A DNA stretch of 64,000 nt from Lonicera japonica. Taxonomy: Eukaryota; Streptophyta; Magnoliopsida; Dipsacales; Caprifoliaceae. The notes below the pieces were generated by a model. It was not told the DNA's origin. It saw only the letters and a list, made by a program, of their open reading frames with translations, and made no database searches. A program made the translations under genes and the position numbers. The stretch spans positions 51,194,783-51,258,782 of the forward strand of contig CM038464.1 in the NCBI GenBank assembly GCA_021464415.1, in the 5' to 3' direction. Positions 44,724 through 47,700 of this stretch are shown here, one piece after another; the stretch's first letter is position 1; each line of letters begins with the position of its first letter.

Positions 44724-47700
44724 ATGTTATGTCTCTTTCTTCATGCAATTATTATTAGTAGAGTTGTTGACCTATGCATAGCTTATCAAAGATTCAAAGC
44801 CAGGTATTTTTTATTTATAGTGAGGTTGTTAATGAGTTTAGACACTGTTTTTTGTTCATTTCTAATATATTTAATTTGCATTTATAGAATACTTTTAAAT
44901 TTCTAATAAATAGGTTATGTGGGAGCATAAATGTTATGAAGATAATAATGGGCCTAGACATGAGCCAGCTCAAACTCTATGAGAGAATTTGTAAAGGGGT
45001 AGAGTAAGCCCTTTTTAGTCTTTTACACTTAACCCTAATGTAACATATGTAACCTTAATTCTATGAATATAAATAGAAGAAGGGATAGCCATCCTAGGGG
45101 ACTCCTCCCAGATCTTAGAGGAGAGAAAATGAAGCTAGGGAATTATTTTAGAGAAAGAATGTGGCAACTTGTATTTTCATTTCAATTGCCTTTGAGCTAA
45201 TATAATCAAACACACACACCACACACAAATGGAGGATGTACTGTCGGAATAGCATAAGCGCTACCGGGGGAACCTACCATACTAAAAAAATCTCTTGTCT
45301 CTTTCACCATCTCTATCTATTACTTCATTGATTTTGTTAAGAGCTTTATCATGTGGGTTTGCCCAAATTTTTGGCCATTCACAATGGGCGCCGTCTGTGG
45401 GAAACGACTTGACATTCCTAAATTCTTAGCATTTTTCATCTTCACTTCTATTTCATTTTCTGCCCCAGAAAATTGCAAGAAAGAGGAAACAAAGGCCACT
45501 TGAAATATTGCTATTAATATCATATAAGCCTTCTTCTATTCTTAATTGCATATGAGCATCCTTTTAATATTATTTGACCATTATTAATTTTGTGTTCTCA
45601 AGCCTACTTCAAAAAGGTACATTTGTGTAAAAAAAATAATTAAAAATTCGATTATTTTGAGATCTTGGTCCAAGTAGGCCAAAAAGATATCTTTCAGTAT
45701 AAAAGAAAAGGTGCAAGTTATTTACCATGTTGTTGTCTAGCTCGGATGGTTGGCTCCCCTTTTTAAAACAAGGGTTGCAGGTTCAATACTCGGCAGTAAC
45801 AAATATTTGTAGCTGAGTTTATTTACTTCAATGGCCAGATCTATTAAAATAAGCCAAAACGCATATCGAATCTCAAAAGTATGCCTAGCCGAGTTGGTCT
45901 GGCATTCGGCGTGTAGTCCATATCATGTGGTCTTGTGTTTGATTCTTGGCCAAAACAAACATTAAATCATTTATTTCAATGGCCAAAGTTGCGCCGATTA
46001 AATTATATCATAGAAATGCATACATATTTTCAAAATTGACTCCAATCGAGTTGGTTGACTTTTTATTTGTCATTGTGTAATGGTGATCATAGGTTCAACA
46101 CTTGGCTACGACAAAATATTTTTAATTTGGCAGAATAGTTGCCGAGCTCACACAAGCCTGGACGAGTTATCAAATAGAAGTACGAATAAAATTTCAAAGA
46201 TGTCCTTAGCCGAGCTGGTCAAGCTCCGAACTCATAAGCTTGAGTTACAGGGTTTCAAATCCCGACCATGACAGAATATTTTTGCTCGGCATATTACTTG
46301 CCGAGCTCACACAAGCCTGGACGAGTTATCAAATAGAAGTACGAATAAAATTTTAGAGATTTTCTTAGCCTGAGCTGGTTAAGCGCCGAACTCACAAGCC
46401 CGAGGTACAAGGTCCAACTCTCGGGCACGACAAAATGTTTTTAATTCGGCAAAATAATTACCGAGCTTGCACAGACTCAACTGATCTATAAAGTTGAAGC
46501 GCGAATAAAATTTCAACAAAGTATCTAGCCAAGTTGGTATGCAGCTTAATGTGTGACATTGAGGTTGCAGGTTCAATACCCAGCTACGTTAAAATTATTT
46601 TTACTCGGCAAATTGTTGAGTCTAAGGACTATTTCAATTGCCAAAGTTCAGCCGAGCTAGTAATAAATAAAGAAAGGCGAAAATTTTCATGCAGTGAGAC
46701 TTAGCCAAGTTGGTGTGCAGCTTAATGTGTGACATTGAGGTTGCAAGTTCAATACCCAGCCACGGCAAAATTATTTTTACTCGACAAATTGGATGCCAAG
46801 TTCACACTAAAGGAATTGATACTAAAGTTGAAGCGCAAATTCATGCCAAAGGCATTGGTAGCCAAATTGGTTCAATGTTCAGCCTACAAAAAAGAGATTG
46901 TGGGTTCGATACTGGGTAGTAATTAATGTTTTTAATGCCAACCCAGTTGGACGATGTTATATCGAGCTAAGAGGTTTTCAATAAATAAAAAAGGGGGACA
47001 AATATTTAAACATTTTACTTACCTGGGGATATGCAATTCAGTAGCAGTTGAAAGCAGAGAAAAATCCATCATCAAAGTAAATCTAGCTGAGCTGGCTAGT
47101 TATCACGTTTTTATGTTCAAAGTTTATATAGAAGTCGCAAGTACGACACTCGGCCAAGACACTATTTTTTATGAGCTCGCAAGGCTTGCGGATGACTGTG
47201 CGACAACTTCATTCGCCATTTAAAGATAAGTGCTATCCTTTTCTTATTAATTGTTTTAAATTTGTGAGCATGCGGTACATACTACTACATATCATGACGT
47301 TTAAACTTTAGTTAAAATTGAAATTATGGGCTAGATGCCAAAGAGCATGAACATGATATAATGAACATCATAAACTTGAAATCTTGATACATTAAAACTC
47401 TTATACCATAGTCGGCCTGAATATACCAAACATTTTGCATGCTTGAAGACCCCTACTATGCAATTTATTTTGCAATTACCCTTGCTAAAGAAAAACTTCG
47501 ATAGCAATAATTCTTTTAGAAAGCTTGTTATGTATTTTCTCTTGCAATATATAATTAGATATACAAAATTCTTGGTAATTGGAAGCCATTCTTATGCACG
47601 GCATGATTAACACTTCTTGCAAACATTCATGTTAACCAAAAAAAAAGGGGGAGAAATAGATTAAGTCATCGCTACTTATAGCCAAATGCTCTCTTTAGTA

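Follow-up and report, generated by a model that had tools for sequence, protein, structure and literature searches.

A tandem array of tRNA-like units with putative RNA polymerase III promoter boxes inside an LTR retrotransposon of Lonicera japonica

Results

An array of tRNA-like units and the element that carries it

The stretch analysed here, 64,000 nucleotides of the Lonicera japonica genome (contig CM038464.1, positions 51,194,783 to 51,258,782 of the forward strand; below called the window, with its first letter as position 1), contains a long terminal repeat (LTR) retrotransposon of 4048 bp, measured from LTR to LTR, and within its interior nine tandem units that resemble transfer RNA (tRNA) genes (u1-u9, Table 1). 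The element has LTRs with TG...CA ends, a short target-site duplication (TSD) and a sequence resembling a primer-binding site (PBS), while its 3' LTR is truncated. The TSD, the LTR ends and the PBS-like site thus confirm the LTR retrotransposon proposed in the initial annotation as the holder of the array. All nine units are arranged head to tail on the sense strand of the element, beginning ~350 bp inside the PBS, and the array (45738-47170) covers 1433 bp of the ~3412 bp between the LTRs (42%), so that the earlier description of an array filling the interior was too strong.

The starts of the A boxes were used as anchors of the units, the anchor of u3 being set by eye. From u1 to u9 the anchors are 148, 158, 163, 159, 160, 176, 157 and 225 bp apart, a range of 148-225 bp around the period of ~160 bp first proposed. 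An A-to-B spacing of exactly 44 nt had been claimed for four units; it is present in u6, u7 and u8 and in u4 is either 44 or 45, depending on which G is taken to open the B box.

Table 1. Features of the array and of the element that carries it (positions in the window; A and B, starts of the A and B boxes; spacing, A-to-B distance in nt)
Feature	Position	Strand	Remarks
TSD, left copy	44913..44917		GGTTA; closes the left flank and opens the right one
LTR-element insertion, single	44918-48965	+	TSD, LTR ends, PBS-like site
5' LTR	44918..45383	+	466 bp, TG...CA ends
PBS-like sequence TGGGCGCCGTCTGTGGGAA	45385..45403	+	one base past the 5' LTR
Possible degenerate unit 0 (weak)	45593..45672	+	best covariance-model match; poor A/B boxes
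Unit 1, tRNA-like core	45731..45801	+	A 45738, B 45780; spacing 42
Unit 2, tRNA-like core	45879..45958	+	A 45886, B 45936; spacing 50
Unit 3, degenerate	46036..46113	+	A ~46044, B 46092; spacing 48; linker common with u4
TTTTT terminator-like run, unit 3	46119..46123	+
Unit 4, tRNA-like core	46200..46273	+	A 46207, B 46251/2; spacing 44 or 45
Linker hairpin GCTCGGCA-TATTACT-TGCCGAGC	46284..46306	+	-15.5 kcal/mol, z -6.9 (stretch 46283-46312)
Unit 5, tRNA-like core	46358..46432	+	A 46366, B 46411; spacing 45
Unit 6, tRNA-like core	46519..46591	+	A 46526, B 46570; spacing 44; 18/18 consensus sites
Unit 7, tRNA-like core	46695..46767	+	A 46702, B 46746; spacing 44
Unit 8, tRNA-like core	46852..46924	+	A 46859, B 46903; spacing 44
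Unit 9, degenerate	47077..47161	+	A 47084, B 47140; spacing 56
TTTTT runs of units 4-9 (starts)	46279, 46438, 46598, 46774, 46929, 47165	+
Second tandem array (AAGACCTTGCTC...CAAGG)	47934..48219	+	also in the neighbouring element
3' LTR remnant	48796..48965	+	final 170 bp only
TSD, right copy	48966..48970		GGTTA; identical to the left copy

Promoter boxes and terminator-like runs

When searching for A/B pairs with a spacing of 43-45 nt and at least 17 of 18 consensus sites, four pairs were found on the + strand of the array, none on its - strand and none on either strand in the rest of the 64-kb window. Lowering the score to at least 16 at the same spacing gave no pair outside the array anywhere in the window, LTRs included. 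Qualifying pairs were equally absent from simulated sequence (150 windows of 64 kb with the same dinucleotide make-up, 5000 simulated sequences of array composition) and from shuffled sequence, be it the array with its dinucleotides kept exactly (3000 shuffles) or u6 as a single unit (20,000 shuffles). Since the units are related and may equal about one independent sample, the control on a single unit is of importance, and it speaks against the possibility, raised in the initial annotation, that the boxes score no better than shuffled repeats. A looser scan (spacing 30-60 nt, at least 8 for the A box and at least 7 for the B box) revealed three pairs of score 15 outside the units, two at 36265 and one at 47404.

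A TTTTT run is found 25-28 nt after the start of the B box (in tRNA numbering 4-7 bases past position 73) in seven of the nine units, against a background of 4-6% of 13-nt stretches; altogether the array contains ten such runs, the seven at the terminator position included. With A and B boxes at tRNA spacing and a T-run downstream, the array has the sequence features of a putative RNA polymerase III (pol III) type 2 promoter.

Likeness to tRNA genes

The units were aligned locally to a panel of 28 tRNA genes, all of class I and drawn solely from E. coli and phage T5. Each of u1, u4, u5, u6, u7 and u8 scored above all 200 of its own shuffles, while the real score was reached by 6 of 200 shuffles for u2, 22 for u3 and 84 for u9, so the nine tandem tRNA-like units first reported stand, with u3 and u9 as poor matches. 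The score of u1 was 126 compared to a shuffle mean of 70.5, and u4 matched best to E. coli tRNA-Met (score 132), its sequence CTCATAA being aligned to the anticodon loop; the best-matching tRNA type varies by unit (Lys, Met, Arg, Asn/Lys, Thr, Glu). When 6390 sliding windows were taken from the two strands of the whole window, the 14 with the highest scores were all located in the array on the + strand, with scores of 134 for u5, 132 for u4, 126 for u1, 120 for u7 and 109 for u6 against 107 for the best elsewhere, u6 thus being only just above.

ARAGORN at default settings gave no tRNA genes. At -ps90 its sole match in the window, 46518-46591, is u6 in register, and at -ps80 two of 38 matches fall in the array (0.9 expected by length), both in register (u1 and u6). 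The relaxed tRNA search called for by the initial annotation therefore recovered two units but not the remaining seven, which were not found by ARAGORN down to -ps60, nor did Rfam give a tRNA match. With a tRNA covariance model of our own (R1) run on 4.1 kb, the units made up six of the 12 matches at E<=10, and only two of those six appear window-wide. RNA folding of the unit cores gave z values from +0.84 to -2.41, and on inspection none forms a cloverleaf, u4 showing partial arms. A reading of the units as functional tRNA genes was rejected on the results of default ARAGORN, Rfam and R1, the cloverleaf having been lost.

Upstream of the array, 45593-45672 is maybe a tenth, AT-rich and degenerate unit; this candidate lies 138 bp upstream of the u1 match, and ARAGORN at -ps80 also gives 45601-45681.

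Kinship, conservation and age of the units

The linkers of u3, u4, u5 and u7 are mutually similar (z 5-35), and further linker matches connect u6 with u7 (z 6-7), u6 with u2 (z 7-8) and, more weakly, u1 with u2 (z 3.4-3.8). By this pattern of linker similarity seven units form one tandem family; u8 and u9 are counted as units solely on account of their cores and may be very old duplicates or separate captures. The cores of u8 and u1 and those of u9 and u3 also match (z about 6 in both cases), which tRNA likeness alone could explain. Decayed forms of the GCTCGGCA/TGCCGAGC hairpin are visible by eye in other linkers.

When comparing all nine units, the A box (mean pairwise identity 0.71), the B box (0.68) and the T-run zone (0.60) stand above the linker (0.48), the inter-box stretch (0.43) and the 5' flank (0.40), and of 148 sliding windows along the alignment two reach the level of the A box and six that of the B box. 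The seven units tied by their linkers give 0.69 (A), 0.69 (B), 0.64 (T zone), 0.45 (inter-box) and 0.54 (linker), and the units u1, u2, u4 and u6 give 0.78, 0.68, 0.56, 0.39 and 0.47, respectively.

Units u6 and u7 have in common a 90-bp block with 6 differences in 90 positions (93% identical) and, the LTRs having diverged by 7%, this duplication is about as old as the insertion. In the linker blocks 11 of 92 positions differ between u3 and u4 and 33 of 92 between u4 and u5. For 32 of the 36 unit pairs the identity is 42-57%, a figure that comes from a gapped alignment without a baseline. Since the divergence of the units mostly far exceeds that of the LTRs, most of the array predates the insertion of the present copy, and we infer that the array was copied along with the element.

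The element and its surroundings

The 5' LTR, with a TATA-like TATAAAT at 45068, and the remnant of the 3' LTR are 93% identical over 170 bp, with 11 transitions among their 12 differences. As the two LTRs of an element are made alike in reverse transcription, the simplest reading is that the missing 296 bp disappeared from the 3' LTR once the element had inserted. No stop-to-stop frame of the element is longer than 98 amino acids (aa) on the + strand or 86 aa on the - strand. A gag-like relic suspected by eye from the translation near 48719-48800 gave no match in a protein search and is not claimed.

Searches for relatives with exact patterns of the element in viral contigs found none, and a search for reverse transcriptase (RT) relatives in viral contigs gave three stretches fitting the pattern, none of them confirmed. 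The PBS pattern had one match in genome contigs, in a metagenome-assembled genome (MAG) of Chloroflexota, and one reading frame of the array had no relative among 5.8 billion proteins.

Adjoining the array element, a degenerate Ty3-type element is situated on the minus strand (~33127-44657), with matches to RVT_3 and Integrase_H2C2, an RVT_1 match below the Pfam cut-off, LTRs 94% alike over 541 bp and frames interrupted by stops and shifts; presumably it belongs to the Tat lineage. Over the 29 nt at 45380-45408 the array element has 90% identity with the PBS region of this neighbour, and the AAGACCTTGCTC repeats of the two elements are 75% identical over 117 bp. From the PBS region and the AAGACC repeats that it has in common with the neighbour, the array element is likely of Ty3 type. 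It is not filed as a proven member, as no assignment by RT or integrase was obtained from its own frames, which are at most 98 aa long and on which no family search was made. The A/B-pair scan and the sliding tRNA-alignment windows did not find the tRNA-like array in the neighbour.

Short tandem repeats AAGACCTTGCTC(GG)CCAAGG were noticed at 37830-38013 (-) and 47934-48219 (+), that is, in two otherwise different elements. Antisense to the neighbour, between its integrase side and its 3' LTR, open frames occur at 34204-36713 (+) with one weak Pfam match, TPR_MLP1_2, below the cut-off; they resemble the antisense open reading frame of some Tat elements. A frame with an RNase H-like (RVT_3) match at 29656-30033 (+) is probably a piece of another retroelement. 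On the other side, tblastn with six plant ARF-type proteins identified an ARF8-like auxin response factor gene on the minus strand (~50198-60290), and the array element is located ~1.2 kb past the last coding match of this gene.

Discussion

Proposed origin and role of the array

The tRNA-derived, pol III-like nature proposed for the array in the initial annotation is supported by A/B pairs beyond chance and by the alignment to tRNA genes. Our preferred explanation, held with about even confidence, is that the interior array of this likely Ty3-type element originated from one or several captured tRNA genes or from the head of a short interspersed nuclear element (SINE), and that its units are likely pol III promoter modules binding TFIIIC rather than tRNA genes. 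In this scheme the element would have taken up one or a few tRNA genes with their linker, or a tRNA-derived SINE head, and the array would have grown by repeated tandem duplication through slippage or template switching during reverse transcription, a process proposed for the tandem repeats of Tat elements (PMC7004042). It would then have spread as part of the element's pol II genomic RNA, and the A and B boxes may have stayed conserved by binding TFIIIC while the element was active.

The purpose of such binding is the least certain step, and only tentatively do we suggest that it would give either short pol III transcripts, each ending at a T-run, or a boundary marked by TFIIIC inward of the 5' LTR. 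In its full form the latter idea, an element-borne boundary of tDNA type in which a row of B-box modules just inward of the 5' LTR would gather TFIIIC and shield the promoter from host silencing or mark insertion sites, is improbable though worth naming; by analogy such a boundary would be a plant counterpart, made of tRNA boxes, to the insulator array in the 5' untranslated region (UTR) of Drosophila gypsy. That insulator is a tandem repeat in the 5' UTR (as told in PMC3286476).

A priming role had also been suggested. As a source of primers the array was rejected, 267 of 300 shuffled PBS complements matching it at least as well as the real one.

Evidence weighing against TFIIIC-binding modules

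Several observations count against reading the units as conserved promoter modules of tRNA origin. With both boxes masked, only u5 remains clearly tRNA-like (its score being reached by 1 of 1452 control stretches); u1, u2, u4, u6 and u7 rank among the top 4-10%, and u3, u8 and u9 do not rise above background. As the signal shrinks in this way, the boxes are the main evidence for descent from a whole tRNA, and the tRNA remnant surviving in the units is mainly the promoter. The Rfam tRNA model gave no match at E<=10 on the element or on u4 and u6 as single units, R1 gives only 3-9 bits to six of the nine units, and its best match (15.2 bits, E 0.049 window-wide) is outside them, at 45593-45672. 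The sequence GCCGAG/CTCGGC recurs in the linkers and in the neighbouring element, making part of the A box cheaper than the simple null assumes. For u8 and u9 no clear match to any other linker was obtained (z at most 3.0), and should some units stem from different tRNAs captured independently, their common boxes need no selection.

Moreover, the youngest group, u3-u7, lacks the box contrast, with identities of 0.68 in the A box, 0.73 in the B box and 0.62 in the linker, and 53 of 147 sliding windows reaching the level of the A box and 23 that of the B box, so that any argument for constraint draws on the comparisons among older units. Conservation of the A box is also partly by construction, the units having been cut at the A boxes and the anchor of u3 set by eye, both of which favour this box, and the evidence base is one copy, known from its sequence only.

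Alternative explanations

The most serious alternative, possible but in our judgement the lesser of the two, regards the array as a passenger: a captured tRNA gene or SINE head multiplied by the ordinary tandem-repeat process of Tat-type elements, its boxes having no role. Tandem repeats are frequent and hypervariable in the Tat lineage (PMC7004042), and the same element holds a second, different array; the loss of the cloverleaf, the weak or degenerate state of u2, u3 and u9 and the unexceptional boxes of the youngest units point in the same direction. What a passive repeat accounts for less well is that the A and B boxes exceed the inter-box sequence in identity (A/B vs inter-box: 0.71/0.68 vs 0.43 for the full set, 0.69/0.69 vs 0.45 for the seven tied by linkers and 0.78/0.68 vs 0.39 for u1, u2, u4 and u6) and that the T-runs stay in register. 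The unrelated linkers of u8 and u9 and the missing contrast in u3-u7 weigh for the passive repeat, and TFIIIC-binding modules are preferred to it by a modest margin.

A unit of ~160 bp in which a tRNA-type promoter is followed by an unrelated part fits the size of a SINE, and every unit could be a whole tRNA-headed SINE, the tandem array having been acquired by insertion. SINE insertion is also the origin proposed for Helenus elements (PMC10886601). We regard this as unlikely, as no A- or T-rich tail or TSD between units was seen by eye (no formal search was made) and the linkers common to u3-u7, and to u2 and u6, fit duplication in place, an argument that does not cover u8 and u9.

That the array is not tRNA-derived at all but a satellite-like repeat rich in GCCGAG/CTCGGC palindromes, with a coincidental resemblance to the boxes, is very unlikely. 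The palindromes of linkers and neighbour, the weak similarity of most units once the boxes are masked and the lack of an Rfam tRNA match would suit it; on the other side, the B box at its exact spacing is independent of GCCGAG, none of the 20,000 single-unit shuffles produced a pair, the array tops the 6390 sliding windows, u5 is tRNA-like even with masked boxes and u6 is the sole ARAGORN match in the window at -ps90. Hardly credible is an array from a host locus or satellite with LTRs around it by chance, which the single visible copy would allow, as the GGTTA duplication flanks the element exactly from LTR to LTR and the array starts ~350 bp inside the PBS on the sense strand of the element.

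Comparison with known elements

In Helenus, described as terminal-repeat retrotransposons in miniature (TRIMs) of 311-1263 bp with one tRNA-like sequence per LTR, Selaginella is the sole plant in that paper (PMC10886601). Like the array element these are non-coding LTR elements with conserved tRNA-type A and B boxes, in which a functional tRNA is unlikely, and in plants and fungi they have the same TSD length of 5 bp. The array element differs in its 4048 bp and in its nine interior units, none being placed in an LTR, and thus lies outside Helenus in both size and LTR content.

An LTR element with several tRNA sequences has been described in cqgypsy_1 of Culex (Osvaldo lineage), where a tRNA dimer directly follows the 5' LTR on its 3' side (PMC3286476). 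There, two folding tRNAs (Lys and Glu) with CCA ends stand head to head in an 11.9-kb coding element with a non-canonical PBS, whereas in the array element nine unfolded units are placed head to tail ~350 bp downstream of a normal PBS-like site. The same paper reports 38 families of non-autonomous LTR elements from Culex with LTR-bounded tandem repeats and no coding capacity, as in the array element, and in the available text the repeats are not described as tRNA-like.

Cassandra, a TRIM, likewise combines LTRs with sequences of a pol III promoter and terminator and is able to form tandem arrays (PMC7215508), but its promoter is of 5S ribosomal RNA (rRNA) type and located in the LTR, and its tandem unit is the whole LTR plus interior; an Rfam scan of the window gave no family at gathering score, and hence no 5S rRNA-like sequence in the LTR. 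Short tandem arrays, variable in sequence and monomer length, are known from Tat/Ogre elements of the Ty3 type in plants, although these repeats are found in the 3' UTR downstream of gag-pol and are presented, in the part of the paper available, without mention of tRNA or pol III content (PMC7004042).

As far as these sources go, the array element joins features of Helenus, cqgypsy_1, Cassandra, Tat/Ogre and the gypsy insulator in a new combination. The initial annotation knew of no described LTR element with an internal tandem tRNA-like array, a statement to be qualified by the cqgypsy_1 dimer and the single units of Helenus. In the open-licence literature, judged by titles and the beginnings of abstracts of the papers listed, no LTR element of a plant was found whose tRNA-like units form a tandem array.

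Conclusion

In Cassandra and Helenus, the known elements with a borrowed small-RNA gene promoter, that promoter is present once in the LTR. In an interior array of many units the promoter boxes are set apart from the initiation of the genomic RNA. Such an array would thereby allow a direct test of whether A and B boxes help a retrotransposon through TFIIIC binding and not through RNA production. If the family is large, such elements may also give rise to clusters of tRNA-like pseudogenes in plant genomes.

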